Shown here: positions 15,565-53,960 of the stretch, piece after piece | Layout of the letters: every line of letters starts with the position of its first letter | Numbering within the stretch: position 1 is the first letter of the stretch | Position numbers and translations under genes: made by a program | The notes under the pieces: generated by a model | Databases searched by the model: none | The model's input: only the letters and a program-made list of their open reading frames with translations | What the model was told of the DNA's origin: nothing | From: Falsiroseomonas tokyonensis | Lineage (GTDB): Bacteria > Pseudomonadota > Alphaproteobacteria > Acetobacterales > Acetobacteraceae | Reading direction: 5' to 3' | Assembly (NCBI RefSeq): GCF_019024325.1 | Contig: NZ_JAFNJS010000006.1 | Span: 186,001-250,000 of the forward strand | DNA: 64,000 bases

Positions 15565-16677
15565 TCAGGCCGCGGAGGCGGCCGTGAACAGCGACACCAC
15601 GCCGAAATCCTGGCGGGTGCGGTTGTCGATCAGCGACTTCCAGTTGGGCTTCAGCATGCCGATGATGCGGCCGATGCCGATGCCGGGGCGGTTCTTGTAG
15701 TCCGTGTTATCGGACTCGGCGTAATCGACGTTGCCCAGCTGCGCGAAGCCGAGCGCCTGCGCGCCCAACAGCAGCGCCTGGGCGCCGTCGATGGTGGAGC
15801 CGGCGCCCCACTTGTCGACGCCGGAGGTCAGGCCCAGCGTGTTCGCCACCTTCTGGTGGTCGTAGAGCACCACGCCCTCCACCACCGCCGTCGCACCCTT
15901 GAACAGCGGGTTATCGGTGCCGCGCGGCGCGGCCTTCGACACCAGCGTCTGGTAGGTGTTGTCGGTCTTCAGGTCGCGCATCTGCTCGGTGGAGAGCACC
16001 ATGGCGTAGTAGTCCCGGCCGCCGGAGCGGATCGGCTTCACCAGCTTGCGCTTGGCAAACGCCGCCGTGGTGACGATCAGGTTCCAGTTGATCTTGTCCG
16101 AGGCCGTCAGCGAGGCGGTGCTGGTGGCCGTGCCGGCATAGCGGACGCGGCCGCTGGAGGGCGCCACGACATCCGCCGCGAAGGCCAGGCCGGGCAGCTG
16201 CGACGAGGCGTTGCGCGTCGAGCCATCCAGCTTCTTCGTGTAGGGGATGCCGGAGATCGTCAGGAAGGCCAGCTCGTCGATCTTGTCGGCGAGCCAGAAC
16301 GACAGCTTCTCCTTGGACTGGGTGCGGAAGCGGATGACCGTCTCCTGCTCCGCCATCTTGCCCTTCGACCGGGTGCCGTTCCGCAGCTGGTCGATGGTGA
16401 TGGTCAGGGTATCGTTCCAGAGGCTTTCCTCGTTGCCCTCCAGCAGGTTGTCCCCGACCACACCATCGCCTTCCATGTCGCCCACCAGCGACATGACGCA
16501 GGTTCGGCCCTTCTCGGTCTCGGTCAGCTGCGTGATGCGCTGGATCACGCTGCCGGTGCCGTCGCCGATGAAACCGTTGGAGAACCAGAAGTTCTGCTCG
16601 CGGCCGGCCATCCAGATTTCGGAAGACCAGACGCGCTTCTTGGCGGTGCTCAGGGCACCGAAGTCAGTGGCGGCCAT
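15565..16677 (-). CDS. Major capsid protein, N4-gp56 family
   Basis: 370 residues. Family features are visible: MAATDFGALSTAKKRVWS at the start, a SVIQRITQL segment, GDGVVGDNLLEGNEESL near residue 80, ITIDQLRNGTRSKGKM, and a WLADKIDELAFLTISG helix. VLSTEQMRDLKTD and the later FKGATAVVEGVVLYDH complete the pattern of N4-gp56/DUF4043 capsid proteins with an HK97 fold. The gene follows the scaffold and is itself followed by a hairpin, as expected for the most abundant virion protein. Combining this capsid type with a P22-type portal is less usual than a P22 gp5 capsid. Confidence 0.88.
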   Translation of the reverse strand: MAATDFGALSTAKKRVWSSEIWMAGREQNFWFSNGFIGDGTGSVIQRITQLTETEKGRTCVMSLVGDMEGDGVVGDNLLEGNEESLWNDTLTITIDQLRNGTRSKGKMAEQETVIRFRTQSKEKLSFWLADKIDELAFLTISGIPYTKKLDGSTRNASSQLPGLAFAADVVAPSSGRVRYAGTATSTASLTASDKINWNLIVTTAAFAKRKLVKPIRSGGRDYYAMVLSTEQMRDLKTDNTYQTLVSKAAPRGTDNPLFKGATAVVEGVVLYDHQKVANTLGLTSGVDKWGAGSTIDGAQALLLGAQALGFAQLGNVDYAESDNTDYKNRPGIGIGRIIGMLKPNWKSLIDNRTRQDFGVVSLFTAASAA

Positions 16678-23264: not shown

Positions 23265-24848
23265 TCAGGCCGACATATGCGTGGTTTGCTGCAGAATGGC
23301 GGTCAGCCTGTCGACCTTCCGGCGCATCGCATCATCCCGGCTCTGCCGCCGGGCAACCGTCTCGTAGAACGTCATCGCCAGCGCATCGGCCTCGTCCGGT
23401 GACGGCAGCCCGCGCGCCTTCATGTCGTCCTTGCTCTCCAGCTGCAGCTGGCCGCTGCGATCGGCAAAGCCGTATTCGACGGCGGTAAGCCCCTCGGTCA
23501 GCGTGCGGGTTTCCTCAATGCACCCGCCGCCGCGCAGCCACTTCCGCACCCGGTCATACATCTCGACCCGGCGGTTGAAGTAAGCCTTCGGGTTCAGCGC
23601 CTTCCGGCCCGCGTTCACGTCGATCACCGAGTAGCCGAGCGCCCGCAGCTCATCGACCACGCCCGCGCCCACGCCGACACCGTCGACGAACGTCGCATCC
23701 GGCCGGTGCTCGGTAATCGCGTCGATCACCAGCTGCTTTACCTGGTCGGTGCCCAGGCCATTGTAGCGGCCGATGATCTTGGCGATGTCGCCCTTGCGCA
23801 GCAGCAGGACCGTGTGGTCGTCGCCGTAGCGCGCCACGTCCACCGCCAGCACCAGCGGCTCGTCCGGATCCACGTCGTCCGTGACCGCCAGCGATACCCG
23901 CTCCGGGTCAATGTTCAGCAGCAGCGCCTTCTCGCGCTTCAACCTCTCCCGCCGCTTGAACCGCGCCACCGCGGCAGCAACGTCCTCCTCCGAGATGAAC
24001 TGGCTCGTCGCCGCCCGCGGCCACTGGCCCTTCACGCGCACCCGGAAGAAGTCGCTGTCTTCCCCGTAGTCCTCCAGCCAGGCCTGGATCTGCTTCTTCG
24101 ACGCCTTCTTCGCATCCCGGCTGTCCACCTGCATGGTGAACCACCGCTTCGCGAACCGGCGCCAGCACTCCCGGAAGCGGCCCGTGTTCCGTGTCGGGTT
24201 GCCGAACACGATCCACATCGCGCCGGCCGTCGTCATCGCGCCCTCCGCCACCTCCCAGATGGCGTCGTCAATCGCGCTGCCCTCGTCGAACACCAGCAGC
24301 ACATGCTTCTCGTGCGTGCCGGCAAAGGCCTCCGCCTTCTCCTTCGTCCACGGCACCGCGCTGGCGAACCAGGTCTCCGAGTGACCCTTCAGGTAGAACT
24401 TCTCGGCCGACCACTGGAACCAGCTGCCGTTGATGGCCCGCTTCTGCCACTTCGCCAGCTCGCGCCACGTCTTGCTGGTCAGCTGCGCCTTCGTGTTCGC
24501 CGTCACCACGATCTGCGGATGGTCCCGCGTCGAGATGAACCACAGGATGATCCACGCAATCAGCGCCGTCTTGCCAATGCCGTGCCCGCTCGCCACCGCG
24601 ACCTGCACCGCCTCCGCCACCGCCTCGCCGGCGTCCACCCCTTCCTGCACGCGCCGGCCAATCTCCAGCAGCACCTGCTCCTGCCAAAAATCCGGCCCCT
24701 CCTCCCCCGCGAGGTCCGTCCCCTCCTCGCCCCAGGCAAAGGCGAAATACACAAACCCCAGCGGGTCCGCGTAAAACCCCTTGATGATGTCGACCAGCTC
24801 GTCGCCCGCTCCAATCTCGTCGAGCGGCGTTACCTCGCGACGCGCCAT
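23265..24848 (-). CDS. terL: Terminase large subunit
   Basis: 527 residues. ATPase: Walker A ASGHGIGKT (residues ~86-94), VVTANTKAQLTSK, Walker B VLLVFDEGSAI with D188/E189, and the coupling motif FGNPTRNTGRF. RNase H-like nuclease: LAVDVARYGDDHT (D337), FVDGVGVGAGVVDEL, and a C-terminal DEADALAM. It packages DNA into procapsids through the portal. The gene follows a group of tiny ORFs rather than an obvious small subunit. The start is the first in-frame ATG after the preceding stop. Confidence 0.95.
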   Translation of the reverse strand: MARREVTPLDEIGAGDELVDIIKGFYADPLGFVYFAFAWGEEGTDLAGEEGPDFWQEQVLLEIGRRVQEGVDAGEAVAEAVQVAVASGHGIGKTALIAWIILWFISTRDHPQIVVTANTKAQLTSKTWRELAKWQKRAINGSWFQWSAEKFYLKGHSETWFASAVPWTKEKAEAFAGTHEKHVLLVFDEGSAIDDAIWEVAEGAMTTAGAMWIVFGNPTRNTGRFRECWRRFAKRWFTMQVDSRDAKKASKKQIQAWLEDYGEDSDFFRVRVKGQWPRAATSQFISEEDVAAAVARFKRRERLKREKALLLNIDPERVSLAVTDDVDPDEPLVLAVDVARYGDDHTVLLLRKGDIAKIIGRYNGLGTDQVKQLVIDAITEHRPDATFVDGVGVGAGVVDELRALGYSVIDVNAGRKALNPKAYFNRRVEMYDRVRKWLRGGGCIEETRTLTEGLTAVEYGFADRSGQLQLESKDDMKARGLPSPDEADALAMTFYETVARRQSRDDAMRRKVDRLTAILQQTTHMSA

Positions 24849-33630: not shown

Positions 33631-33992
33631 GGCGCGCTCTCCGCGGCGGGCTGCGCGGGGATGCGGGCGAGTTCGGTGCGCGCCTTGCTCCAAGCCGCAT
33701 CTACCGGGCCGAGGTGGTTTTCGTGACCCGCCTCGACCGGCCCCTCCCGCCACAGATTCGACAGCGCGGCGTCGAGACCCGCGAGCGCCGCCCGCAGCGC
33801 GTCCCGCTCGGCCGCGAGCGTGCGGAGGGTGGCGGCAAGCGCCATCTTGGCGTCGCCCTCCGCCGCATCCAGCGCGGCAGCGGCCTCCGCCAGCAACGCG
33901 CTGACATGGCTTGCGCTCAGCGCATCGCCGTCGCCGTTACCGGGCCAGCCGCGTAGCCGTGCCCGCAGCGCCGCGCGTTCTTCCTGGGTCAT
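33627..33992 (-). CDS. Coiled-coil hypothetical protein (121 residues)
   Basis: Starts MTQEERAALRARLRGWPGNG, then Ala-rich helices (ALLAEAAAALDAAEGDAKMA, TLRTLAAERDALRAALAGLD), and ends LARIPAQPAAESAP. It overlaps the helicase stop by 4 bases. Only a coiled-coil character can be stated. A longer frame to 35303 is a shadow of the intein/helicase region. Confidence 0.45.
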   Translation of the reverse strand: MTQEERAALRARLRGWPGNGDGDALSASHVSALLAEAAAALDAAEGDAKMALAATLRTLAAERDALRAALAGLDAALSNLWREGPVEAGHENHLGPVDAAWSKARTELARIPAQPAAESAP

Positions 33993-36900
33993 GCGTTCTC
34001 TCCTGATTCGGGTTGGGTGGAATCGGTGCCGGTGTCGGCGCCGCAGCTCGCCAGGCGGCCGGTGCGCGGATCTCGCTTTAGCACGGCCTTGCTGTTTCGC
34101 ACGCCGAAAGCGGGAAACCGGGCCTTCCAGCAGTGGACATTCACGTAGCCCTCGAACTCGCGGTAGATCGTCAGCCCCAGGTCGGCCCGGTTGAACCACA
34201 TGGCCGACCCGTTGATGTCGTAGCCTTCGACCACCGGGTATTTCTTCGTCTTGGGGTCCTTGGCCTGGCCCTTGGGATGGGCCGCGATCAGCAGGCCGAT
34301 TCCCTCGCGTCGCGACCACGCCTTGAGGCGGCGCAGCCAGCGGCCGGTGTATTGCGTCTCGCTCTCGCCACGCTGGAACTGGTGCTCCAGCTCGTTGTTC
34401 GGATCCAGCACCAGCAGCTGCCGCTTGTGTCGCTTCTTCGCCTGCTCGGCGCGCGCCAGCAGCCACTCGTATGTCATCTCCGTGTCCGGATCGTCCGCAT
34501 AGACGAAGGTGATGTGGTCGCGAATCCATTGCTCGGCCTCGGACAGCATCCAGTCGGGCATGTAGCCGCCGGCTTCGCGCACCGGCTGGTTCTTCACGAT
34601 CTGGGCGATGTCCAGCGCCAGCACTTCGGGGCGATTGTCCTCCGGGCTGCACCAGATGATGCCGATGTCGTGGCGGTGGGCGATGTAGGCCAGCCAGCAG
34701 CGGAGGAAGGCGCTGTTGTGGGTCGCGATATGGGCGCGAGTGACAAGGAACTGGTGGCTGGGATGCGCCACCTGGATGCACTTGACCGGCACGCTCTCGC
34801 ATCTCTCGGCCGAGACGATGGTTCGATGCTTGAGCCTTGGCCTGCCGCGGCCAAGCACGGCCTCCAGGCGCTCGGCCTTGCGCCGCAGCCTGAAAACCTG
34901 CGTCGTCGGGTAGAACAAGACGCGATACTTCGGCCCGCAGTCCCGCCCATTGATTGTCGCTCGCCCGGCAACCAAGCTTGGGCGCATACCGAGCGAAGCA
35001 ACCAGCGTGAATGCAGCTTCGGCGAGTTTCAGGTTGATCGAGCAGAACTCGGCTTGGCCCTGGGCGCTCATGTAGCCGTCCGTGTCCATCAACCCTTGCA
35101 GCAAGGCGAGCCGCTGATCCTGCGATGCCATGAGGTATGCCTGCGGGACGTGTTTGTTGTTCAGCACGCCGAGGGTGCGAAGGTCGGTTGATAGGCCGAG
35201 CGGGCTCCACTTGGGCAAGCGGCCGACCCAGTAGGTGCTGGTGGTATCGCTGGCGCCCTTTGCCTGCCTTTCCACGACGAACCCATCGGCCTCGACATGG
35301 CAAAGGATTTCAGCGTCAGCATCGGCGCATGTCAGCCTTGACGATGCGCTGGTCCCATCGCCAAGCCAGACGCCCAGCGTGTAGGGCGGCACCAACAGAT
35401 CTGCGGCGTTCATCTGGACCGGCGCGGCAACGGCGATGGTGTGGTTCAGCCTGGTGCGGTCTTGACCATCGCGCACCGTCAGCGTCTCGGCGATTTGTGC
35501 GGTGGTTTTGGAACTCGGGAAGGCCCGAAGGTGCTGCTGATCCTTGCCACGAGGCTTGGTCGCTTCGCGCCCGGCGCGCTTCTTCCGAGCCTGAGTCGCG
35601 CTACGCCGCGCCTTGTCGTCGCACGTCACCCATTGGTGCTCGGCGTCAGCGATCACCTCGGTGCCGCAATCGAAGCGCAGTCGGTAGCAGGGCCGGGAGT
35701 GCATTACCTCGCTGACGGCCAACACTTTGGTGGCGGTTCCGTCTGGAGCGAATACCAGATCGCCTGGCTGCAGATCGGCCATGTAGCGCCAGCCCTGCGG
35801 CGTCGGAATTTCGGTGCCCAGCGCCAGGGCCTTCCCGTGCGACGGGATGCCCGTCACCACGGTGAGCCAGCCGCCGCCGAAAGGCAGGCGGGCGATCTCG
35901 TCGAGGCTCTTGATGCCGCTCTCCAGGCCGCGCGGCTGCTGGCCGGTCGCCATGAATTCGCGGAGCGCGCCCGGCTTGAGGTCGAACAGGCCCATCAGCG
36001 GCCAGGGCTGCGCCGCGGCGATGGCGTCGCGGAGATCCTGGCGCCCCTGCTCCAGCTGCTCGGGTGTCGGCTCCTGGCCCTTCGGCGCGTGCCGCCGCAG
36101 CACGTCATTGGCGTCCTTGCAGCCTTCCGGCCAGGTCACTTTCCAGCAGCGGACCTTGCCGAGCCGGCGCGCTAGCTCCTCCGCCAGGTATTGGCCCGGC
36201 ACGTCGCTGTCCGTCGCGATGATGATGCGCTTCACCGTGGCCACGGCTTCCTGGTTGGTGTCGAGGCAGAAGAAGCGATGGTTCTCCATGCGCTTCGGGT
36301 CATCCTCGGCGAGCAGCTTGTTGTCGGTGCCGTCCGGCATGCTCACGACCTGGCGGAAGCCGGCTTCGTGCAGCGCAAGCACGTCCATCTCGCCTTCGAC
36401 GAATATGACCTCATCGTCGCTGGTGATGGCGTCGACGTTGAACAGCGTGCGCTCGCTGTCCTTGTCCTGGCGGAACTGCTTGTCCTTCGACCGGAACTTC
36501 CGGTTCACGATGGTGCCGCCCCAGCGGTAGGGGAACACGATGGTCGGCTTCGGCTCGAAGGTGGCCTCGCCATCGCCGTCCTTGATCGGCTTGCCATCGG
36601 CATTCAGCGCGGGCCACCGCATCGTGCAGGCGTAGATCCCGAACTCGTCGACGGTCTCGCCGCTGATGCCGCGGCGCGCGAAGTAGGCGTAGAGCTCCGG
36701 CGGTCGCGTCATCTCCTCCGGCTTGTGCAGCTTCGGCGCCACCGCCACCGGCCGGGGCCGGGGCCTGGGCGTCTCATCGCCGCCGGCGCGGTGGCGGTCG
36801 CTGCTCTCGATGCGGCCGGAGCCGGGCACCAGGTCGTTGCCGCCGCAGGTGCCCCGCTTGCAGTGCCAGGCCGCGCCCTGCCCGTCGTCGTCGATCTTCA

Positions 36901-37078
36901 GCGAGAGGCTTTGCTCGCGGGTGCTGCCGCCATTGCAGGCCGGGCAGAGGAGCTTGCTGTTGGCGCCGGGCACCAGGCGCGTGCGGGCGCTGGGCACGAT
37001 GCGCGCCTCGGCGAGAATGTCGGCGATGCTGTCGCCGACCAGGAAGGGCTTAACGGGATCGGGGCGGCGGGCCATCAT
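33989..37078 (-). CDS. Primase-helicase (T7 gp4/Twinkle type) containing an intein
   Basis: 1029 codons including a 372-residue intein, so the mature protein would be ~657 residues. N-terminal zinc finger: LLCPACNGG, then AAWHCKRGTCGG. TOPRIM: VIFVEGEMDVLALHEAGF and IIIATDSDVPGQYLAEEL. RecA-like DnaB helicase: GIKSLDEIARLPFGGG, Walker A GIPSHGK|S split by the intein, IGIIWCSPEDNRPEVLA, Walker B LLVLDPNNELEHQ, GIGLLIAAHPKG. It would open and prime the phage fork. It starts at the ATG overlapping the upstream stop (ATGATGG allows 37078 or 37075). Confidence 0.92.
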   Translation of the reverse strand: MMARRPDPVKPFLVGDSIADILAEARIVPSARTRLVPGANSKLLCPACNGGSTREQSLSLKIDDDGQGAAWHCKRGTCGGNDLVPGSGRIESSDRHRAGGDETPRPRPRPVAVAPKLHKPEEMTRPPELYAYFARRGISGETVDEFGIYACTMRWPALNADGKPIKDGDGEATFEPKPTIVFPYRWGGTIVNRKFRSKDKQFRQDKDSERTLFNVDAITSDDEVIFVEGEMDVLALHEAGFRQVVSMPDGTDNKLLAEDDPKRMENHRFFCLDTNQEAVATVKRIIIATDSDVPGQYLAEELARRLGKVRCWKVTWPEGCKDANDVLRRHAPKGQEPTPEQLEQGRQDLRDAIAAAQPWPLMGLFDLKPGALREFMATGQQPRGLESGIKSLDEIARLPFGGGWLTVVTGIPSHGKALALGTEIPTPQGWRYMADLQPGDLVFAPDGTATKVLAVSEVMHSRPCYRLRFDCGTEVIADAEHQWVTCDDKARRSATQARKKRAGREATKPRGKDQQHLRAFPSSKTTAQIAETLTVRDGQDRTRLNHTIAVAAPVQMNAADLLVPPYTLGVWLGDGTSASSRLTCADADAEILCHVEADGFVVERQAKGASDTTSTYWVGRLPKWSPLGLSTDLRTLGVLNNKHVPQAYLMASQDQRLALLQGLMDTDGYMSAQGQAEFCSINLKLAEAAFTLVASLGMRPSLVAGRATINGRDCGPKYRVLFYPTTQVFRLRRKAERLEAVLGRGRPRLKHRTIVSAERCESVPVKCIQVAHPSHQFLVTRAHIATHNSAFLRCWLAYIAHRHDIGIIWCSPEDNRPEVLALDIAQIVKNQPVREAGGYMPDWMLSEAEQWIRDHITFVYADDPDTEMTYEWLLARAEQAKKRHKRQLLVLDPNNELEHQFQRGESETQYTGRWLRRLKAWSRREGIGLLIAAHPKGQAKDPKTKKYPVVEGYDINGSAMWFNRADLGLTIYREFEGYVNVHCWKARFPAFGVRNSKAVLKRDPRTGRLASCGADTGTDSTQPESGENA
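34715..35830 (-). mobile_element. Ala1 intein with LAGLIDADG homing endonuclease in the helicase
   Basis: 372 residues inserted between Lys and Ser of Walker A (helicase residues ~417-788). The first residue is Ala (ALALGTEIPTPQGWRYMADL), not Cys or Ser. The block B region reads DAEHQWVTCDDK, with the conserved His. Endonuclease motifs: PPYTLGVWLGDGTSASS and ALLQGLMDTDGYMSAQG. The C-terminus is HQFLVTRAHIATHN, followed by Ser+1, giving the penultimate His and terminal Asn. Ala1 inteins splice by direct attack of the +1 residue on the upstream junction. All splice residues needed for that path seem present. Confidence 0.92.
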
Positions 37079-37923
37079 CCGCACTCCACGCCGCATGCCG
37101 ACAGCGTAGGGCCGGGGTCCAGCGGCAGCCGTGCTTGCCGGCTCACCAGCGATGCGATCTCAGCCAGCGAAGGGCGGTCGCCGCGGTATCGGCCCGAGAA
37201 GCCCCGCGCTTTGCTGCTCGCCTCATCCTCCAGCCATTGCTCCATGTGCTCGGGTTCCTCCTCGAACATGCGCGCGACCTGGTGGATGCGCTTCTGGAAG
37301 CAGCCGCCGCAGTTGCCGGCCCACTTCGGAACGCGGAGTTGAAAGGGCTGGAGGCGCCAGAACGCCAGAACCTCCTCCTCGGTGATGCCGGCCGCGTCCA
37401 GAGGCATCACGCTCTGCCAGGGGCTTCCACCGCGCGCGTTGCTCGCGACCCGCGCCGCGACCCGTTCCGGCTCATCGTGGCGCAAGCCGACGACGTTCAC
37501 CCATTGCTTCCAGCCCAGGGCATCCTTCAAGAACCGCTTGAGCGTCAGCACCTTCAGTTCCTCGGTGCAGTAGCGCATCCCTGGATGCGGCAGCAGAAAG
37601 CCCTTTGCCTCCAGCAGCGCGCGGAAGGGTTCGCCGCGGCGCGATGCGCTGTTGTGGCTCACCTCCTCGGCCCACCGCTTGCCGGTCGCGGCATCGCGGC
37701 GCCATTCAATCCAGCGGATGCGGACGTTCCACCGGGCGGCGAACTCGGCCACGAAGTCGAGCGTGCCCGGCATCTCGCGCCCGGTGTTGGCGAAGGCGAC
37801 CACCACGTCATCCGGCAGCGTGCCGCCGTGCGCCTGGAGGATGCGCCGCAGCATGTAGGCGGATGTTCGCCCGCCGCTGAACGAGATCACGGCCGGGCCG
37901 GTGATGAGGAACGGATCAGCCAT
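37075..37923 (-). CDS. PAPS reductase / PP-loop family protein
   Basis: 282 residues from the ATG overlapping the next stop; the longer frame is a shadow. PP-loop: AVISFSGGRTSAYML (SGG-x2-S). Then VVVAFANTGREMPGTLDFVA, RIRWIEWR, LLPHPGMRYCTEELKVLTLK (RYC-x6-K, as in the CysH/DndC group), NVVGLRHDEPERVA, and a C-terminal Cys pair CGGCFQKR plus a terminal ACGVECG. Phage members may serve DNA modification (DndC-like), sulfur metabolism or nucleotide chemistry. No DndD/E partners are visible. It lies immediately upstream of the helicase. Confidence 0.75.
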   Translation of the reverse strand: MADPFLITGPAVISFSGGRTSAYMLRRILQAHGGTLPDDVVVAFANTGREMPGTLDFVAEFAARWNVRIRWIEWRRDAATGKRWAEEVSHNSASRRGEPFRALLEAKGFLLPHPGMRYCTEELKVLTLKRFLKDALGWKQWVNVVGLRHDEPERVAARVASNARGGSPWQSVMPLDAAGITEEEVLAFWRLQPFQLRVPKWAGNCGGCFQKRIHQVARMFEEEPEHMEQWLEDEASSKARGFSGRYRGDRPSLAEIASLVSRQARLPLDPGPTLSACGVECG

Positions 37924-40428: not shown

Positions 40429-40799
40429 GCTGACGCCTTTCCGATCTACGAACATAGCCTTCGACGCCACAGGGATCGCTTATCTCGCGATAGGTGAGGA
40501 TCGAAGCCAAAATCTGCCGCTGTTACTCAAGGGTCACTTATAAGCCACTGTTTAAATGAGACTTTGCGCCGCAGCAGGGCTTAGCCCGCTACGCTTCCGC
40601 TGCAAAAATCACCGCAACACGATATTCGTATCTTGCGGTTACCGTCACCGATTGGCAAGATGCGTCGTGGCTGGCTCCCGCATTTGGTTTCCAGCCACGG
40701 TCATCGAGGGGTGGGCGCCGCGTTCTCCACGCGGTTCGGTCGGCAGCCGCAGACGCTGACTGCCCGCCCCTCGAAGCAGCCCTTCGGGAGGCATATCGC
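40429..40799. promoter_or_regulatory. Divergent promoter/operator region between replication and recombination operons
   Basis: 371 bases without a gene, AT-richer than its surroundings at 40500-40640. Inverted repeats: ATCGC-7-GCGAT at 40475-40491 near the start of the RusA operon, and ACCGCAA-15-TTGCGGT at 40611-40639, which encloses GATA-TTCG-TATC (40621-40632). Candidate promoter pieces (TTATAA, TTTAAA) lie at 40520-40555. The palindromes are good repressor-site candidates. The right half (40680-40799) shows only GC-rich sequence. Confidence 0.6.
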
Positions 40800-41192
40800 T
40801 TGGTTTTCAAAGGATCTTCCGCGCCTCTCCGACCTGAGAACGTGGACCCTCGAATTCTTGAGACGGCAGCCCGCATCCGCCTGGTTCGGCGGAAATTCCG
40901 GGTTCTCCAGTCGGAAATCATTGCGCGTGCCAGCACAAGTCGTTTTGCGGTTCGCCAGTGCCTCCGGGGCTACCTGGTCCGGCAGCCGGATCCGGCATGG
41001 TCGGTGCGGGTGAACAGCGCGATTGACGCCATCCTGCAGGACCGGGCCCGCGCGGCGCTGGCCCGCCTCGATCCCGAATTTGCCGCCTGGGACAAGCAGC
41101 GCGCGGAGCGCCTGCTGCTGGACCGTGCTGCGCGCCTGGAGGCCGCGGTGCAGCGCGCGCGCGCCGATGCCGATGGCGGAGGGCGCTTCTGA
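40800..41192 (+). CDS. Putative HTH protein (130 residues, TTG start)
   Basis: TTG start supported by GGGAGG 8 bases before; no ATG is better placed. A helix-turn-helix-like segment (RKFRVLQSEIIARASTSRFA, VRQCLRGYL) is followed by a long basic helix (LQDRARAALARLDPEFAAWD, RAERLLLDRAARLEAAVQRA). It heads the recombination operon and overlaps the next gene as TGATG. It may autoregulate through the palindromes upstream; that is inferred. Confidence 0.55.
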   Translation: MVFKGSSAPLRPENVDPRILETAARIRLVRRKFRVLQSEIIARASTSRFAVRQCLRGYLVRQPDPAWSVRVNSAIDAILQDRARAALARLDPEFAAWDKQRAERLLLDRAARLEAAVQRARADADGGGRF

Positions 41193-42001
41193 TGGTCGGC
41201 TTCGGGAAGCAGGGGTGGCCCACTGAGGCGGAGGACATGGTCAAGGCGGGGTGGGTCGTGCCGCGCTCGCCGGGAGAGATTGCGGCCGATCTGTCCAGGC
41301 GGTTCGGCATCGCCGTGACGGAGGCCATGGTCTCTGCCAAGGCGCATCGCCTGGGCCTCAAGCCACGCAGGCGCATCGTCACCCTGAACCAGGCGCTGCT
41401 GGAGGCGAAGCTCATGCCAGGCGACTGGGATCTCCTGCGGGCGATCGAGCAAGCCGCGCGTTCGGGCCGTCCGGCGCCGACCAATCTCGAGATCTGCGGC
41501 CTCTTTGGTCTCGCCAGCGTGTCCACCGCTGCGCGGATGGTCCAGCGCCTCGAAGAAGCGCGGAAGATCGCCGTGCAGCGCGGCGCCGATCACCGCGTCA
41601 TCACGGCGGCAGACGGTTCCTGGAAGACCGCGGCGCCCCGCGGCAAGCGCATGCCCAACAGCCGGCCGGATTCGCCTCGCAGGACCGCGCCTCCAACCGT
41701 GGCGCCTTCCGCCCCTGCCGGCGCGGCGATGCCGGTGGAGGAGGTCGCGGCCTTGCTGGAGGGGCCAGCCGGCCAGCCCGGTCCCTTCGAGGAGCAAGCG
41801 CCAGCCGAGCCGAATGCGCCCAGCGCGGTCCGGCCGGCGATCCTGCTGCGGCCTGGCGTGCGGTATCGGACCTACCAATTTCCCCAGGGGCACCCCCGGA
41901 CCCCCGGCTTCCGGTTCTGCGACGCCGCTACGGTGCCCGGCCGCCCATACTGCGCGGCTTGCTGCGCCAAGGCCTACGTCGTTCGGGGGCAAGCAGCATG
42001 A
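41192..42001 (+). CDS. GcrA-like cell-cycle regulator with extra winged-helix domain
   Basis: 269 residues. The N-terminal HTH (RSPGEIAADLSRRFGIAVTE, AMVSAKAHRLGLKPRRR) has the GcrA 'IA..L....A...K.HRLGL' pattern. The middle domain, LEICGLFGLASVSTAARMVQ then RLEEARKIAVQRGADHRVI, is LexA-like winged helix. After a Pro/Ala linker the C-terminus (YQFPQGHPRTPGFRFCDAAT, VPGRPYCAACCAKAYV) matches the GcrA C-terminal domain that binds sigma-70 region 2. GcrA activates N6-methylated promoters in alphaproteobacteria. An adenine methyltransferase gene lies two genes downstream. Confidence 0.8.
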   Translation: MVGFGKQGWPTEAEDMVKAGWVVPRSPGEIAADLSRRFGIAVTEAMVSAKAHRLGLKPRRRIVTLNQALLEAKLMPGDWDLLRAIEQAARSGRPAPTNLEICGLFGLASVSTAARMVQRLEEARKIAVQRGADHRVITAADGSWKTAAPRGKRMPNSRPDSPRRTAPPTVAPSAPAGAAMPVEEVAALLEGPAGQPGPFEEQAPAEPNAPSAVRPAILLRPGVRYRTYQFPQGHPRTPGFRFCDAATVPGRPYCAACCAKAYVVRGQAA

Positions 42002-42168
42002 GTAACCGGATCTGGTTCGGCCGGCGTGCGAATCAGCGCCCCCCGGAACCAGTGGCGCCGCCGCCCGCGCGTGGCGTGCTGGTGGAGCTGCAGCCGGATG
42101 AGATGGAGGCGCTGCGCCGCTACTGGGATGAGCGCGAGGCGCGCCAGGCCGAAGGGCGCCCCGCATGA
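41998..42168 (+). CDS. Small hypothetical protein (56 residues)
   Basis: ATGA overlap with the GcrA-like gene and ATGACA overlap with the methyltransferase gene. Pro-rich N-terminus, then a helix (ELQPDEMEALRRYWDEREAR). Function unknown; it may couple translation of the neighbours. Confidence 0.5.
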   Translation: MSNRIWFGRRANQRPPEPVAPPPARGVLVELQPDEMEALRRYWDEREARQAEGRPA

Positions 42169-42695
42169 CAACCGATCTGCTCGGCAACGGCACCAAGCGC
42201 GGCATGGGTGGGCACCACAGCCACGCCAGCGACACGACCGTCTGGCTCACGCCGCCGGAGTTGCTGGCCTCGCTTGGGGCGTTCGATCTGGACCCCTGCG
42301 CCGCGCCGGAGCCGAGGCCGTGGCCGACCGCCGCGGTCCACTATGGCCTGGCAGAGAATGGCCTGATGAGGCCCTGGGCCGGGCGCGTGTGGCTTAATCC
42401 GCCGTATGGCGCCGTCGTCTCTGCGCCTTTCATGCGGCGGATGGTCGAGCACGGGCGCGGCACCGCTCTTATTTTCGCCCGCACGGAAACCGCGCTGTTC
42501 CGCGAAACCGTCTGGCGCGCCGCTTCCGCGCTGCTTTTTCTAGCTGGGCGCCTGTATTTCCACCGGCCAAACGGCGACCGCGCCGAAGCCAATGCGGGCG
42601 CTCCGAGCGTGCTGGTCGCCTACGGCGCGGAAGACGCGGCGCATCTGCGCGACTGCGGCCTGCCTGGCGCTTTTGTCCACGGATGGCGTGCATGA
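42165..42695 (+). CDS. Phage DNA N6-adenine methyltransferase
   Basis: 176 residues. The family pattern of phage N-6-adenine-methyltransferases is clear: SDTTVWLTPPELLASLGAFD, LDPCAAPEPRPWPTA, GRVWLNPPYG with the catalytic NPPY at residues 78-81, FARTETALFRETVWRAASAL, LFLAGRLYFHRP. The SAM site is provided by the LDPCA region, as in Dam-like members. The target site cannot be read. It could protect phage DNA or tune methylation-dependent host promoters, relevant next to a GcrA-like gene. Confidence 0.85.
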   Translation: MTTDLLGNGTKRGMGGHHSHASDTTVWLTPPELLASLGAFDLDPCAAPEPRPWPTAAVHYGLAENGLMRPWAGRVWLNPPYGAVVSAPFMRRMVEHGRGTALIFARTETALFRETVWRAASALLFLAGRLYFHRPNGDRAEANAGAPSVLVAYGAEDAAHLRDCGLPGAFVHGWRA

Positions 42696-43567
42696 CGAAG
42701 GATATCGTCGTGCGTCCGTCGAGCCTGACCACCTTTGCCAGCTGCCCGCGGCGCTGGGCGGCGCGGCACATGCAGGATGAAGTGCGGGCCGCCGGCTACA
42801 CGCTGGCCCAGGGCCGCGCCACGCATGTCGGCGCGCAGATCGGCACGGCGGTCCACGCGGCGGCTTCGCACACGCTGGCGGAGAAGATGCGCCGCGGCGG
42901 CGACCTGGGCACGGATGCCGATGCCGAGGAGGTCGGCATCGAGGCCTTCCGCGAGCGCGTCGCGGCCGAGGGCTGCGACTGGGACACTATCACGGGCGAC
43001 CCCGACACCGCGCAGAAGCAGATTCGCCGCATGTCGAGGGTGTGGCGGCGCTCGGAAGCCGCGGCGGGCAACCCGCTGATGACGGAGGAACGTCTGGAGG
43101 CCGAGGTGCGGCCTGGCCTGATCGCCAGCGGTCAGATGGACGCAGTAATGACGGGCGATCCTGATGCGTCGATCCGGGACACGAAAACAGGCGTCTCGCG
43201 CCGCGCGAACGCGCTGCAATACGGCACCTACGGGATGATCCTTCGCGCGCATGGGCACAACCCGGGCGAGATGATCGAGGACTACCTGCCGCGCGTGTCG
43301 ATCCGAAAGGAGCAGCCCCCCGTGGAGGCGCACTCGGTCGACATCATCGCCGCGCAGGAAGAAGCCTGGGAAGCGATCGAGGCGCTGGCCGCAACGGTGG
43401 AAGAATTCCGCCGGCGCTGCGCCGACCCCAATTCGCGGCCGCCGAACATGGCGTTTCGCGCCAACCCCGCCGATTCACTCTGCGCGGCGAGGTGGTGCCC
43501 GGCCTGGGGCACCGACTTCTGCAGAGCACACATTCAGGCGCCTCGAAGCGCGGACGAGAAACCATGA
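42692..43567 (+). CDS. RecB/Cas4-like PD-(D/E)XK exonuclease, possible Fe-S cluster
   Basis: 291 residues. Start PSSLTTFASCPRRWAARHM (C18), GTAVHAAASH (H55), SGQMDAVMTG (D150), SIRDTKTGVSR (D163, K165) and ALQYGTYGMIL (Q176): the RecB-family nuclease order H-D-DxK-Q. The C-terminus carries CAARWCPAWGTDFC (C264, C269, C277), which with C18 could hold a 4Fe-4S cluster as in Cas4 and AddB. It sits upstream of RecT and probably supplies the 5'-3' resection that RecT needs. Confidence 0.8.
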   Translation: MTKDIVVRPSSLTTFASCPRRWAARHMQDEVRAAGYTLAQGRATHVGAQIGTAVHAAASHTLAEKMRRGGDLGTDADAEEVGIEAFRERVAAEGCDWDTITGDPDTAQKQIRRMSRVWRRSEAAAGNPLMTEERLEAEVRPGLIASGQMDAVMTGDPDASIRDTKTGVSRRANALQYGTYGMILRAHGHNPGEMIEDYLPRVSIRKEQPPVEAHSVDIIAAQEEAWEAIEALAATVEEFRRRCADPNSRPPNMAFRANPADSLCAARWCPAWGTDFCRAHIQAPRSADEKP

Positions 43568-43902: not shown

Positions 43903-44138
43903 GCGGCGACCAGGAGACGGGCCGTGCCCTGGTGACGGTGGAGCAAGGCGATCTGCTCCCACCCGGGCCGCCGCCGCACGCCACGCTGATTGCGACCGAT
44001 GGCCGGAGGGTGGTGCTGCAGCGCCAGCCGGACGGATCGCTGTCCATGATCATCCACGGGCGCGAGCCGGTGGTGCTGGATCGCTTCCAGACCGCCGCCT
44101 TCGTCGCCGCCGTCGCAGCGCTGGGAGACCCCCGATGA
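43899..44138 (+). CDS. Hypothetical small protein (79 residues, GTG start)
   Basis: GTGA overlap with the preceding gene and ATGA overlap with recT. It is beta-rich (ATLIATDGRRVVLQRQPDGS, SMIIHGREPVVLDRF) with a helical end (TAAFVAAVAALGDP). A partner of RecT or of the nuclease is possible from position alone. Confidence 0.5.
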   Translation: MSGDQETGRALVTVEQGDLLPPGPPPHATLIATDGRRVVLQRQPDGSLSMIIHGREPVVLDRFQTAAFVAAVAALGDPR

Positions 44139-45295
44139 GCGAAACCCGCACCAAGCCCAGGCCCACCATGGCGCCGCCGAGCGCGGCCACCGCCGTGATG
44201 TCGCCGGAGGAGATGAGGACCGTCCTGAAGCAGACCGGCCGCGAGGCCGGTGGCTCGAAGGTCAGCAGCTTCTTCGAAGCCAACAAGGGCAAGCTGGCGC
44301 AGCTGCTGCCGGAGGCGATGAAGCCGGATCGCTTCCTGCGCATCACGCTGAACGCGCTGCGCACCACGCCGAAGCTCATGGAGTGCACCATCGAATCGCT
44401 TTTCGGCGCTTCGATCTTCTGCGCGCAGCTCGGCCTGGAGCCGAACACGCCGCAGGGGCACATCTATCTGATCCCCTTCAAGAACAACCGGAAGAACATC
44501 ACGGAGGTGCAGGTCATCATCGGCTACCAGGGCCTGATCGCCCTGGCGCGCCGCACGGGCGAGATTCAGTCCATCTCCGCGCAGGCGGTCTTCGCCAACG
44601 ACGACTTCGACATCGACTGGATGAGCCCGGAGAACAGCCGCCACAAGCCGCCGAAGCACGGAACGCCGCGGGGCGAATTCATCGGCGCCTGGGCGAAGGC
44701 GACTTTCAAGGATGGTGGCTTCGCCTTCGATTACATGCCGGCCGAGGACATCCTCAAGATCCGGGACGGCAGCCAGGGCTATCGCTCGGCGGTGCGCTTT
44801 GCGAAGCCCGGCCAAACGCCGAACACCCCATGGGCCACCAACTTCGACCAGATGGCGGTCAAGACGGCGATCCGCCGCCTGGCGAAGCGCCTGCCCATGT
44901 CCATCGAGTTCGCCGCAGCCGCCACCCTGGACGAGGCGGGCGACCGCCGTGTGAGCCAGGGCATGCACCGCGTGCTGGACCACGGCGAGTTCGACCTGTC
45001 GGCGATCGGCCAGCCCGAGGACGACGAGGACGCCGATGCAGAACCGCCGCCGCGGGTGCAGGAGCCGGAGCCGGACCAGCGGCAGCCGCGCCAGGGCCGG
45101 CAGCCTCGCCAGCCCCGCGGGCAGCAGCAGGAGGCGGATGCCCCCAGCGCCGAGACGCCGCACGACCTGGAGACGGGCGAGGTGGAGGATGGTGATGGCT
45201 TCCCCGGTGACGGTGACACGGGCGGCGATCCCGGTCCGCAGACGGATGATGGGCGAAGCGGCGGGCCGCCTCCCCGAGTGGAGTTCGGCGAGTGA
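44135..45295 (+). CDS. recT: RecT single-strand annealing recombinase
   Basis: 386 residues. Core marks: LKQTGREAGGSKVSSFFEAN, LAQLLPEAMKPDRFLRITLN, FGASIFCAQLGLEPNTPQGH, IYLIPFKNNRKNITEVQVII, GYQGLIALARRTGEIQSISA, ADDILKI-like and NTPWATNFDQMAVKTAIRRL, all conserved in RecT/Bet-type annealing proteins. The C-terminal ~90 residues are acidic/Pro/Gln-rich and disordered, longer than in E. coli RecT (269 residues), and may recruit partners such as SSB. With the adjacent Cas4-like nuclease it forms a RecET-type system. Confidence 0.92.
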   Translation: MSETRTKPRPTMAPPSAATAVMSPEEMRTVLKQTGREAGGSKVSSFFEANKGKLAQLLPEAMKPDRFLRITLNALRTTPKLMECTIESLFGASIFCAQLGLEPNTPQGHIYLIPFKNNRKNITEVQVIIGYQGLIALARRTGEIQSISAQAVFANDDFDIDWMSPENSRHKPPKHGTPRGEFIGAWAKATFKDGGFAFDYMPAEDILKIRDGSQGYRSAVRFAKPGQTPNTPWATNFDQMAVKTAIRRLAKRLPMSIEFAAAATLDEAGDRRVSQGMHRVLDHGEFDLSAIGQPEDDEDADAEPPPRVQEPEPDQRQPRQGRQPRQPRGQQQEADAPSAETPHDLETGEVEDGDGFPGDGDTGGDPGPQTDDGRSGGPPPRVEFGE

Positions 45296-45636
45296 CCGCC
45301 GCGACAAGGCTGTCCGAGGCGCTGGCCGAATGGGGCATGTGGCAGCGCCTGGACCGGATGCAGATCGAGCTCCAGCAGCGGCCCGAGCAGCAGATGATGG
45401 TGTCGTTCCGCTCTGGAACCTCTGGGCCCGATGACCGCCATCTGGAGATCCCGCGCGAGAAGCTGGTGGAGTTCATCCACGACCGGATGCGGGATCAGAA
45501 ATATCGCCTGATGCGCCTGGGCGTGGAGGGCCATTTCGAGCCGACAATTTGCCCGCCGCCGGCGGCGCCCGGCGATGAGGCTGACGCGGCGCCATGCCGC
45601 CTTCCCGACACCTGCGACGAGGAGAAGCCGCTTTGA
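45292..45636 (+). CDS. Hypothetical protein in recombination operon (114 residues, GTG start)
   Basis: GTGA overlap with recT and TTGA-type overlap with the SMC-like gene. Helical (TRLSEALAEWGMWQRLDRMQ), then a beta pair (MMVSFRSGTSGPDDRHLEIP), then REKLVEFIHDRMRDQKYRLM. Cys near the C-terminus (ICPPP, PCRLPDTCDE). Family unknown; overlaps suggest functional linkage to RecT or the ATPase. Confidence 0.5.
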   Translation: MTAATRLSEALAEWGMWQRLDRMQIELQQRPEQQMMVSFRSGTSGPDDRHLEIPREKLVEFIHDRMRDQKYRLMRLGVEGHFEPTICPPPAAPGDEADAAPCRLPDTCDEEKPL

Positions 45637-47375
45637 CCATGACCTTGAAGGTCCGCGACGTGCTGGGCGTCGTATCGGCCTCTCTGCCGTTGGAGAAAAT
45701 CACGCTGGTTGGCGGCGGCAACGGCCAGGGCAAGTCCTCGCTGCTGCAGGCCTGCGCCGCGGTGGCGCTGCGGATGCCGAAGCTGCGTGGCGCGTCCCGC
45801 AAGGCCGACTTCGCGCATGTGGTGCGCCGCGGCAGCGCCGATGGCGGCGCCGCGACCCTGTCCTGGGAGACCGGCATGCGCCGGATCTCCTGGCCGAGCG
45901 GTGATGTTCACTCCACCGGGGACGGCGACGCGCGCCACATGGGCTCGCCCCTGGGCATCGGCGCGGTTCGCTTCATGGAGCTGCCGCCCAAGGAACGCCT
46001 GTCCGTGCTGGCCGAACGCCTCGATCTGGCGCCGACGCTGGACGACATCGCGGCCTGGCTGGCGCCGAAAGATGACCGGGGCAAGCCGCTGCCGGAGGCC
46101 GAGGAGGATCGGCAGGCCCGACTGGACCTTGCGACGGCGCTGCACAGCAAGGTCGATATCTCCGGCTGGGACGCCTGCGAGAAGACGGCCCGCGAATACG
46201 CGCTGAAGCTGAAGGGGCGATGGGAAGAGGTGGCCCGGCCGGCCAACTGGGGGCCGCAGAAGGCCGCCACCTGGGTGCCGGAGGGCCTGCTGCCGGACGA
46301 GCCCTACGACCTGGCGGAGGTCGCGGCCGAGATGGACGCGGCCAAGGCCGCCTACCAGGCGGCGCTGCGGGCGGGCAGCGCCAGCGAGGCGGAGATTGCC
46401 CTCGCCCGAGAGGCTGCGGCACCCCTCGACGATCTGCTGAAGGCGGGCGAGGCCTGCCAGGCGGCGGTCCTGGCGGCGCAGGAGACGCTGACGGCGCTGG
46501 AGCAGCGGCTGAAGGACTTGCCGCGGCCGACCGATGCCCTGCCGCTGCACACCTGCCCGCACTGCGAGGCGGAGATCCGCGTCACGATCAATGCGGCGAT
46601 CGACGAGATCAGGCTGGAGAAGCCGCCGGCGGAAGCCGCCAAGAAGGCGTCGCCGGCGGAGAACGCCAAGCGGCGCACCGCCATCACCGCCGCCAGGGAC
46701 GCGATCCGTGGCGCGCAGGATGCGCTGGAGCAGGCCCGAAGGGCAGCGCAGGAGAACAGCGCGGCAGTGGCCACGGCCGAGGAGGCGAAGAAGCGGCTGG
46801 CGCGGCTGCAGGCCATGCCGAAGCAGGATCCGGAGGCGGTCGGACGGGCGCAGCTGGCCGCGACCCAGGCCGAGACCAAGCACCGCCTGGTCAGCACCAT
46901 GCTCCGCGCCCGCGAGATCTACCGGGATTGGTGCGCCCAGCAGCCGATCATCAACTGCCTCGCCTCCACCGGCGTGCGGATGACGGTGATGGAGCGCCGC
47001 ATGGGCGCCTTCAACGCCGAGCTAGCCGCGCTGTGCCAGGTGGGGCGGTTCGGCCCCGTGACCCTGACCGGCGAAGGCGAGCTTCGCTATGGCGAGTCGT
47101 CGTGGGAGCAGATGGCGGAAAGCGAGCGGTGGCGCGCCGAGCTGCTGCTGACGCTGGCCTTCGCCAAGCGAGAGGGCGCCCAGCTGGTGCTGGTCGATCG
47201 CCTCGACGTGCTCGTGCCCACCCAGCGGCCCGGCGTCTGCGAGCTGCTGATCCACATCGGCATCCCGGCCCTGGTCGCGATGTCGGCACGCAACCCCGAG
47301 GCACTGCCGAACCTGGAGGCGGCCAATTACGGCCGTCGCGCCTGGATTGAGGGCGGCGTGCTGCGGCTGCTGTGA
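45633..47375 (+). CDS. SMC/Rad50-like ATPase with zinc-hook motif
   Basis: 580 residues from a TTG with GGAG 8 bases before; the ATG at 45639 is the alternative, 14 bases from that site. Walker A VGGGNGQGKSSLLQAC (residues ~26-41), a long coiled-coil zone, CPHC at ~308-311 as zinc hook, a second coiled coil, and a C-terminal head with ELLLTLAFAKREGAQLVLVD (Walker B, VDRLDVL) and LVAMSARNPEALPNL. Phage SbcC-like proteins work with nucleases in end processing. No SbcD-like partner is adjacent, so the Cas4-like nuclease may be its partner. Confidence 0.75.
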   Translation: MTMTLKVRDVLGVVSASLPLEKITLVGGGNGQGKSSLLQACAAVALRMPKLRGASRKADFAHVVRRGSADGGAATLSWETGMRRISWPSGDVHSTGDGDARHMGSPLGIGAVRFMELPPKERLSVLAERLDLAPTLDDIAAWLAPKDDRGKPLPEAEEDRQARLDLATALHSKVDISGWDACEKTAREYALKLKGRWEEVARPANWGPQKAATWVPEGLLPDEPYDLAEVAAEMDAAKAAYQAALRAGSASEAEIALAREAAAPLDDLLKAGEACQAAVLAAQETLTALEQRLKDLPRPTDALPLHTCPHCEAEIRVTINAAIDEIRLEKPPAEAAKKASPAENAKRRTAITAARDAIRGAQDALEQARRAAQENSAAVATAEEAKKRLARLQAMPKQDPEAVGRAQLAATQAETKHRLVSTMLRAREIYRDWCAQQPIINCLASTGVRMTVMERRMGAFNAELAALCQVGRFGPVTLTGEGELRYGESSWEQMAESERWRAELLLTLAFAKREGAQLVLVDRLDVLVPTQRPGVCELLIHIGIPALVAMSARNPEALPNLEAANYGRRAWIEGGVLRLL

Positions 47376-50264: not shown

Positions 50265-50696
50265 ATGAGTGAGATCCGAGAAGACAGCGACCTCCGACTG
50301 CTCTCCGCGCCAAGCGCGGCCAAGCTCCTGGGTGTTTCCCTCAAGACATTCCGCGCGCTGCGAATTCCCTGCATCCGCTCTGCGGGTGAACGGAAGTTCT
50401 ACACGCGCCGCGGCATCGTCGATTGGCAGAACCACCAGCAGCAGGAGCAGAAGGCATGCCCACCGTCCCCCGGAAGCCGGGAGGGCGACGGAAAGCCGTC
50501 GCCGGCGAAGAATTCCTTGTCACGCGCGCCGAGTCCTCGGCCTGGCACTACGATTTCTCCATCGAAGGAGAGAGATTTCGCGGAAGTTGCGGGACTGGCG
50601 AATTCGAAGCCGCCGCAGCCATTGCTAAGGCTCGTTTCGACGAGCAATTCGCCCGCATCAAGCTCGGGCAGGAGCCGGTCCGGCACCTCACGCTGA
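50265..50696 (+). CDS. Excisionase/MerR-like HTH protein overlapping int
   Basis: A 143-residue frame. Residues ~12-62 form an HTH_17-type domain: LRLLSAPSAAKLLGVSLKTF, RALRIPCIRSAGERKFYTRR, GIVDWQ. After residue ~64 the frame runs inside int for ~240 bases and turns Ser/Pro/Arg-rich, like an out-of-frame read, so the functional part is the N-terminal ~65 residues. Excisionases commonly precede int. An unusual extended overlap or a lost stop codon is possible. Confidence 0.6.
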   Translation: MSEIREDSDLRLLSAPSAAKLLGVSLKTFRALRIPCIRSAGERKFYTRRGIVDWQNHQQQEQKACPPSPGSREGDGKPSPAKNSLSRAPSPRPGTTISPSKERDFAEVAGLANSKPPQPLLRLVSTSNSPASSSGRSRSGTSR

Positions 50697-51676
50697 ACGA
50701 CGCTTTTGTCCGCTTCTATGAGGAGGTGGCGAAGGGCACGACATACGGCGAGCGCGGGCAGAAGCACCAGATGAACCGGATGCTGCGCATCCTGGGCCCG
50801 AGGCTGCGGCTGGCCGACCTGACGGACAGCGTGGTCAACGACATGGTGCAGGTGCTGCGCACGACGCCGCTGGCCGCGACGGGCAAGCGCGCAACGCAGG
50901 TGGCGTCCGGCTCGACCATCAATCGCTACATCGACACGCTCTCCGCGGTCTGCCGCCGTGCGCGCGAGGTCTGGGGCGTCGTGGTCGGCCAGTGGTCGCG
51001 GAAGAAGCACCGCCAGGCCGAGCCGGAGGGCCGCGAGGTCTTTCTGGACCATGAGGTGGCAAAGCGCGTCTTGCACCATGCCGTTGCGCATATCCGCCCG
51101 GTGATGCTGCTGGACGTGATGACCGGGATGCGGAAGGCGAACGCGGTCGGAGTGACCTGGGAGCAGATCAGCCTGCCGGAGGCGCGCATCGCCTTCATCG
51201 GGAAGGGCGGGAAGTCCCTGGCTGTGCCACTGCCTGCGGAGGCCCTGCGGCTGCTGGAGGCTCTGCAGCCGGAGCCGGAGAAGCGGCGCGGGCCGGTGTT
51301 CGTCTATGGCAATCCGGCCGTGGCCTGCGGCTGCGCGGCGTGCAAGCGGCCGGACCTTCGAGGCAAGGCCTTCAAAGATCCGAAGCGGTCCATCAAGACG
51401 GCGTTCCGCCTGGCGGGGCTGGGGCCGGAGGTGCGGTTCCACGATCTGCGGCACACCTTCGCGAGCTGGCTGCTGGCGGCCGGCGGCGACCTGAAGATGG
51501 TTCAGGAGCGGTTGGGCCACGCCGACATCAAGACGACGATGCGCTACGCGCACATCGACAAGGCCAGGACGGCGCGCGTGGTGGCGGCGGCCAGCGCCGG
51601 CCTGTTCAGCGAGCCGAAGCCCACGGCCGAGGTAGTGCAGCTGCCCGCGCCGGAGCGGGAGGAGGACGCGGCATGA
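50456..51676 (+). CDS. int: Tyrosine integrase
   Basis: 406 residues from the ATG at 50456 (AGGAG 8 bases before). SAM-like N-terminal domain, then the catalytic domain: R226 in DVMTGMRKANAVGVTW, K~250 in IAFIGKGGKSL, HDLRHTFASW (H329, R332), ERLGHADIKT (H355), Tyr364 in TMRYAHI. A small Cys cluster (CGCAACKRPDLRG, residues 291-303) sits between box I and II, unusual and possibly metal-binding. It is expected to recombine at the tRNA-Pro site 2.2 kb downstream. Confidence 0.92.
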   Translation: MPTVPRKPGGRRKAVAGEEFLVTRAESSAWHYDFSIEGERFRGSCGTGEFEAAAAIAKARFDEQFARIKLGQEPVRHLTLNDAFVRFYEEVAKGTTYGERGQKHQMNRMLRILGPRLRLADLTDSVVNDMVQVLRTTPLAATGKRATQVASGSTINRYIDTLSAVCRRAREVWGVVVGQWSRKKHRQAEPEGREVFLDHEVAKRVLHHAVAHIRPVMLLDVMTGMRKANAVGVTWEQISLPEARIAFIGKGGKSLAVPLPAEALRLLEALQPEPEKRRGPVFVYGNPAVACGCAACKRPDLRGKAFKDPKRSIKTAFRLAGLGPEVRFHDLRHTFASWLLAAGGDLKMVQERLGHADIKTTMRYAHIDKARTARVVAAASAGLFSEPKPTAEVVQLPAPEREEDAA

Positions 51677-53882: not shown

Positions 53883-53942
53883 CGGAGCGGGACGGGAACA
53901 TGCCCCCCAGACTGATGCGCTACCAGACTGCGCTACGCTCCG
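53883..53942 (-). tRNA. tRNA-Pro(GGG) 5' half with disrupted 3' half: prophage attachment site
   Basis: The minus strand from 53942 reads CGGAGCG (acceptor), TA, a GCGC-loop-GCGC D-arm, A, TCAGT and the CTGGGGG anticodon loop (to 53904): a good tRNA-Pro 5' part of 39 bases. After the loop the pairing strand, variable loop and T-arm are missing; a 7-base CGCTCCG matching the acceptor stands only 14 bases later (53883-53889), so the total is 60 rather than ~77. This fits an att junction in the anticodon loop. tRNA-Pro next to merR/ihfA is, I believe, a conserved alphaproteobacterial location. The intact gene may be reformed at the unseen left end. Confidence 0.7.
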
Positions 53943-53960
53943 ACTGCGGCGGCAATAGCA

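Follow-up and report, generated by a model that had tools for sequence, protein, structure and literature searches.

A prophage protein with GcrA-type end domains and an inserted winged helix shares an operon with a predicted adenine methyltransferase in Falsiroseomonas tokyonensis

Introduction

GcrA, a protein of the bacterial host, directs RNA polymerase to promoters that are methylated. Phage homologues of it are already known: GcrA is encoded by phiCbK-like phages (PMC3556154), gp5 of Atu_ph08 is given as a phage homologue (PMC6630229), a table lists GcrA among phiLM21-like prophage genes (PMC12429752) and gcrA is present in the genome of a coral-associated phage (PMC11309003). A prophage-like operon of Brevundimonas shows GcrA-dependent expression (PMC7987155). 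The mechanism of GcrA is treated in two papers (PMC7403470; PMC3667746), the second of which presents it as the founder of a regulator class whose members read adenine methylation. GANTC-specific phage methyltransferases, thought to mimic host marks, lie near replication genes in Sinorhizobium and Paracoccus prophages (PMC5537653), and phage GcrA and phage CcrM analogues are named in one sentence, as separate examples, in PMC9437464. Here we describe a prophage locus of Falsiroseomonas tokyonensis in which a GcrA-like protein of three parts and an adenine methyltransferase of the Dam type are encoded in one operon; it lies in a window of 64,000 nucleotides (contig NZ_JAFNJS010000006.1, positions 186,001 to 250,000), in whose coordinates all features are given. 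The literature searched, to which most subscription papers do not belong, yielded neither a description of the three-part form nor one of a neighbourhood of GcrA with MT-A70 methyltransferases.

Results

A GcrA-like protein of three parts

The gene at 41192..42001 (plus strand, as are all genes of the operon) encodes a protein of 269 residues that passes the cut-off of the GcrA family PF07750 (32.6 bits against 26.9, E 1.3e-7, in two stretches), the best stretch placing residues 224-262 on profile positions 107-145. Comparison by hhalign with an alignment of seven GcrAs recovered the C-terminus only (residues 224-265, probability 98.4), and a profile of 81 proteins from 80 viral GcrA loci aligns with both ends of the protein (19.1 and 27.3 bits). 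In the AlphaFold2 (AF2) model, a GcrA-type DNA-binding fold (41213..41365, codons about 8-58) is followed by a LexA-like winged helix (41384..41587, codons about 65-132) and, at the end, by a sigma-interaction domain (41861..41986, codons 224-265). The modeled C-terminal domain superposes on 5yix_B over 40 columns with a root mean square deviation of 1.8 and resembles the folds of 5YIX and 7YE2, from which binding to region 2 of sigma70 and to RNA polymerase is predicted. A sequence search of the PDB with the whole protein gave nothing credible. The initial annotation, made from the letters of the window, had proposed both GcrA end domains with an inserted LexA-like winged helix and had staked its reading on the C-terminal one; Pfam, the AF2 model and the fold comparison bear out this architecture, and the C-terminal domain held up in Pfam and hhalign alike.

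The protein departs from GcrA in the helix that would read DNA and at near-invariant positions of the C-terminal domain. Its recognition helix reads TEAMVSAK, against [RK]NAV[IV]GK in the GcrAs of the host and of Caulobacter; other viral GcrA-domain proteins deviate from this motif too, and the chromosomal GcrAs of a few relatives do so at single positions. At the four C-terminal positions that are almost always Cys-Cys-Cys-His in GcrA, and that we guess to form a metal site, the protein has Y228, C243, C254 and C257, so that the first Cys is replaced by Tyr and the His by Cys. It retains P231, G233, P235, F240, C243, G250, Y253, C254 and A261, all of which are invariant across a nine-sequence alignment. 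Against the NCBIfam GcrA equivalog NF050816 it scores 15.9 of the 280 bits needed (residues 8-59) and so misses the orthologue cut-off. Because both the recognition helix and the C-terminal Cys/His positions are changed, we regard it, from its sequence, as a PF07750-domain phage protein and not as a GcrA orthologue, one that may nevertheless work like GcrA.

The operon and its methyltransferase

The rightward operon, which starts near 40800, is translationally coupled, with a TGATG or ATGA overlap at each junction from its first gene to the exonuclease. The first gene (40800..41192; 130 codons, with an uncertain TTG start and without a Pfam match) has a stop that overlaps the start of the GcrA-like gene as TGATG. 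A 56-codon open reading frame (ORF; 41998..42168) without a Pfam or PHROG match comes next, then the methyltransferase gene (42165..42695), which thus lies two genes on from the GcrA-like gene and in the same coupled operon, as had been noted at the outset; the extents first given for the two genes, and their products of 269 and 176 residues, were also correct. The exonuclease of the PD-(D/E)XK type (42692..43567; PF12705, 61 bits) is coupled to the methyltransferase through an ATGA at 42692, its alternative longer ORF starting at 42683. Farther on are a RecT family protein (44135..45295; PF03837, 163.7 bits), whose start was chosen by inspection from an ATGA overlap, and a gene (45594..47375) with weak family evidence for an SbcC-like or AAA ATPase: PHROG gave phrog_1499 (unknown function, E 1.8e-4) and SbcC-like phrog_77 (E 8.6e-4), and Pfam AAA stayed below its cut-off. 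Upstream of the operon lies a divergent intergenic region of 329 bp (40471..40799). Between 39900 and 42300 no sigma-70 consensus was found (0.2 expected) and no terminator.

The 176-residue methyltransferase belongs to the phage DNA N6-adenine methyltransferases of PF05869 (32.7 against a cut-off of 28.1) and matches PHROG 111, 'DNA methyltransferase', at 3.5e-41; it misses the cut-off of the equivalog TIGR01712 (26.1 against 97.05), and a sequence search of the PDB gave no match. It keeps every residue that is at least 90% conserved among 44 sequences, its own included, with N78-P79-P80 of the NPPY motif among them, and it therefore looks like an intact phage adenine methyltransferase whose activity is predicted. 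Relatives of the PF05869 type occur in 298 of 50,697 phage records.

Under a first-order model of the prophage from 3 to 52 kb, GANTC is depleted (59 sites, 189 expected) and GATC shows no depletion (329 sites, 281 expected). GANTC is sparse in four stretches of host DNA (L227-L230; L numbers designate our loci) too, with 0.5 to 1.9 sites per kb where the prophage has 1.2. Of the two motifs, the stretch of 329 bp ahead of the operon contains only GATC, twice, at 40474 and 40499. Control of GANTC by an enzyme of the phiLM21 type was considered and is unsupported, phiLM21_p027 showing no alignment to the 176-residue enzyme. The host encodes its own GcrA, as well as a protein that scores 478.9 bits to CcrM (6PBD) and has a RAMA domain, and therefore probably writes GANTC marks anyway.

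Relatives and other viral architectures

Neither tblastn of the 50,697 phage records nor pattern scans made with the single protein, run on viral and on genome contigs, found a close homologue of the whole protein. In two overlapping sets of related genomes, 146 and 397 in number, most of the matches listed cover the C-terminal part; L220, whose match spans residues 9-263, was rejected as a full relative since it is a GcrA of ordinary build, and L218 likewise. Some matches covered the middle part only, and those in L214 and L217 were set aside as lying inside ATPases, which we take to be DUF87/HerA-like.

The one relative of the same three-part build is L234 (IMGVR_UViG_3300045912_000679), 32% identical over 190 columns with an E-value of 2e-13 for that comparison. 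It came from a second viral sample, 35 loci from a scan on C-terminal motifs close to those of the prophage protein, and differs from the latter in retaining the helix SKNAVAGM and all four Cys/His positions; its 31.8-kb record, possibly a fragment, carries no PF05869, MT-A70 or PF01555 gene. A profile built from these two sequences and run over the ORFs of the collected loci, L266-L345 among them, turned up the middle part in no other protein; the next best was L027, a chromosomal GcrA, with an E-value of 0.021 for that domain. Other viral builds add to or reduce GcrA in different ways: L242:2758-3498 has a MarR-type helix-turn-helix (Pfam) ahead of the GcrA DNA-binding domain, L257:1846-3087 has, by eye, an extra helix-turn-helix ahead of its GcrA part, and five ORFs that are much alike, of 61-69 codons, hold the sigma domain alone (L243:1607-1801, L249:625-807, L251:374-568, L253:4389-4595 and L254:227-409; that of L243, the one of the five compared with Pfam, passes PF07750). 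The sigma domain is thus the constant part across the viral builds. Among relatives of the prophage terminase, no GcrA scored over the cut-off in 23 records (23 of 53 loci, the longer contigs), a search insensitive to divergent members, since a similar search of the host failed to list the prophage protein itself.

Methyltransferases near GcrA in viral records

The first viral sample comprised the best 80 of 187 GcrA loci, 50 of which, picked by hand, were tested as whole records; near-duplicates at 70% identity and, for the most part, short contigs were left out, as were L158 and L160 to keep the number at 50, and the sample is biased through selection on the motif type [RK]N[AT]V[IV]GK. Closeness was assessed with 20000 permutations that keep the observed strand relation of each enzyme and count related records as independent. 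MT-A70 enzymes occur in 10 of these records, in nine of them on the same strand as GcrA and within 2 kb of it, where 0.65 were expected (none of the 20000 permutations reached nine). GcrA is preceded by the enzyme in L081, L116 and L154 and followed by it in the remaining six. Four of the nine records (L106, L132, L135 and L136) form one lineage with enzyme identities of at least 67%, and the nine reduce to about four or five lineages. The exception, L104, belongs to a linear record of 38 kb (G159) that starts with a truncated MT-A70, at base 4, and has GcrA at its right end; we note that the two would adjoin if the genome were circular or circularly permuted. Taken over all loci, MT-A70 is close to viral GcrA in L081/L041, L101, L106, L116, L132, L135, L136, L151, L154, L156 and L262, L041 being the same place as L081, with overlapping Dam, MT-A70 and GcrA genes in one row; among the loci left out, MT-A70 is near GcrA in L134, L155 and L156, and Dam in L089 and L098.

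PF05869 occurs in 10 of the 50 records, within 2 kb of GcrA in two (0.32 expected, P 0.03), and PF01555 in 13, with two within 2 kb (P 0.25) and six within 3.5 kb (1.49 expected, P 0.0014). C5 methyltransferases, our control, score over the cut-off in 14 records, with four within 2 kb (1.36 expected, P 0.035); this count excludes three matches under the cut-off, whereby two records were dropped and a third lost one extra match. Since the C5 enzymes are also close to GcrA, part of the closeness reflects a shared genome region, and MT-A70 exceeds them (Fisher P 0.0045). Of the second sample's 35 records, one has MT-A70 (L262, where it lies upstream of the GcrA ORF by about 1.7 kb), seven have PF01555 and none, that of L234 included, has PF05869. 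Conversely, only one of 43 viral loci around Dam enzymes, L041, has a GcrA-like ORF. The initial annotation had suggested searching for its gene pair in other phages: the adjacency of a phage GcrA with an adenine methyltransferase is supported for MT-A70, and a general pair of GcrA with a PF05869 enzyme is unsupported, on the counts of 2/10, 0/35 and 1/43.

The prophage and its host

The setting in a prophage, also claimed at the outset, is confirmed by genes for the terminase (23265-24848, minus strand), portal (18423-20432, minus), major head protein (15565-16677, minus) and integrase (50423-51676, plus), and by an exact repeat of 43 bp. The right copy of this putative attachment site lies at 53904..53946, and the left copy, which overlaps tRNA-Pro(GGG), about 10.9 kb to the left of the window; from the spacing of the two copies the prophage is about 64.9 kb long, most of it inside the window, in a host genome of 6.16 Mb. 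The GcrA and CcrM of this genome, together with named Rhodospirillales and Acetobacteraceae among the nearest GcrA matches, point to an alphaproteobacterial host. A protein of 1035 residues (33989-37096) has strong PHROG matches both to primase/helicase (47-423) and to the terminase large subunit (about 414-803). In the host genome, contigs C3 (at its start) and C12 (at its end) break within paralogous genes for the GcrA C-terminal domain (L228:2-256 and L229:5743-5997), which have near-identical starts and a similar small ORF after each and point to a repeated family of GcrA-domain genes in this host.

Discussion

We propose, with a probability of roughly one half, that the 269-residue protein is a phage-encoded cofactor of the host sigma70 that would act as GcrA does but with an altered choice of promoters. 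In this mechanism the C-terminal domain would bind the primary sigma factor of the host at its region 2 and the two N-terminal DNA-binding domains would select promoters, and the altered helix, together with the added LexA-like winged helix, which is joined on by flexible linkers, would make that selection differ from the one made by host GcrA. The changed helix and the added domain would thus send host polymerase to a different set of promoters, probably those of the phage, instead of copying the host regulon. We suppose that the protein would be expressed early and that the first job of the Dam-type enzyme would probably be modification of phage DNA. Several points weigh against this proposal. 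Only two proteins of the three-part architecture were found, the prophage protein and L234. The agreement of the AF2 model with GcrA is partly circular, because the input alignment contained GcrAs; from the single sequence, AF2 left the C-terminal domain unfolded, at a predicted local distance difference test (pLDDT) score of about 30. Foldseek gave no match to the model with an E-value below 0.001, and the N-terminal fold is a common one, with small terminase and Myb domains within 2 Z. Moreover, 106 of 116 viral sequences have Cys at the first of the four Cys/His positions (one has Gly, nine have a gap) and 111 have His at the fourth (two have Cys, three have a gap), so that with Tyr and Cys at these positions binding to sigma may be weak or lost.

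The most serious alternative, though we consider it unlikely, is that the two genes act as writer and reader: the Dam-type enzyme would mark phage promoters and the GcrA-like protein would recruit the sigma70 holoenzyme to them, switching polymerase to phage genes. That both genes sit in one coupled operon, that the methyltransferase retains its conserved residues, that MT-A70 adjoins viral GcrA in either gene order and that Dam, MT-A70 and GcrA overlap in one row in L041/L081 are all in its favor. Yet PF05869 enzymes are rarely the neighbors of GcrA, C5 enzymes, which write no N6-methyladenine, are mildly close as well, the recognition helix and one near-invariant Cys of the presumed reader are changed, and GANTC is absent upstream of the operon; this particular pairing with Dam, which the initial annotation had put forward, is therefore weakly supported. 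Somewhat less probable still is an ordinary phage regulator that works through its winged helix, as a switch of the LexA or repressor type, and whose GcrA ends are relics, as it sits poorly with a C-terminal domain that passes the Pfam cut-off with its nine invariant residues and with L234, where all three parts occur with the four Cys/His positions intact. Least probable is a decoy that fills region 2 of sigma70, displaces host GcrA and stalls the host cell cycle, which would explain why the sigma domain is kept while the DNA-reading helix is altered, and why five viral loci encode that domain alone (short proteins that are themselves possible sigma70 decoys), but would have no need of the two predicted DNA-binding domains.

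A broader and more tentative suggestion, which we rate as rather doubtful, is that phages of alphaproteobacteria carry portable epigenetic modules in which an adenine methyltransferase (mostly MT-A70, here PF05869) writes and a cofactor, with the GcrA sigma domain joined to changeable DNA-binding domains, reads, moving RNA polymerase to phage promoters. If phage GcrAs have had their DNA-binding domains changed or supplemented, the sigma-binding part would prove to be a movable adaptor, and the repeated neighborhood of GcrA and adenine methyltransferases offers a direct way to ask whether phages run a methylation-driven promoter switch of their own.

Among described systems, the CcrM-like enzymes of Sinorhizobium and Paracoccus prophages resemble the 176-residue enzyme in being phage adenine methyltransferases near replication genes and differ from it in that phiLM21_p027 does not align; no GcrA was found in the 50 kb of phiLM21 searched with profiles. 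phiCbK gp222 and its relatives, and gp5 of Atu_ph08, share with the prophage protein a phage-encoded GcrA domain, use of host functions having been proposed for them. By its annotation gp222 has 182 residues against 269, which would leave no room for the winged-helix insert, and the annotation, in which most of the genes around gp222 are hypothetical, shows no methyltransferase within 3 kb; the homologue in the Brevundimonas phage Bajun is longer than gp222. A further comparison is with GcrA of Caulobacter crescentus (PF07750; 5YIU, 5YIX, 7YE1), with which the prophage protein shares the N-terminal DNA-binding fold, a flexible linker and the C-terminal sigma-interaction domain, and from which it differs in its length (269 residues against 173, with the winged helix inserted), its recognition helix, two of its Cys/His positions, its location on a prophage and a score far under the NCBIfam equivalog cut-off.
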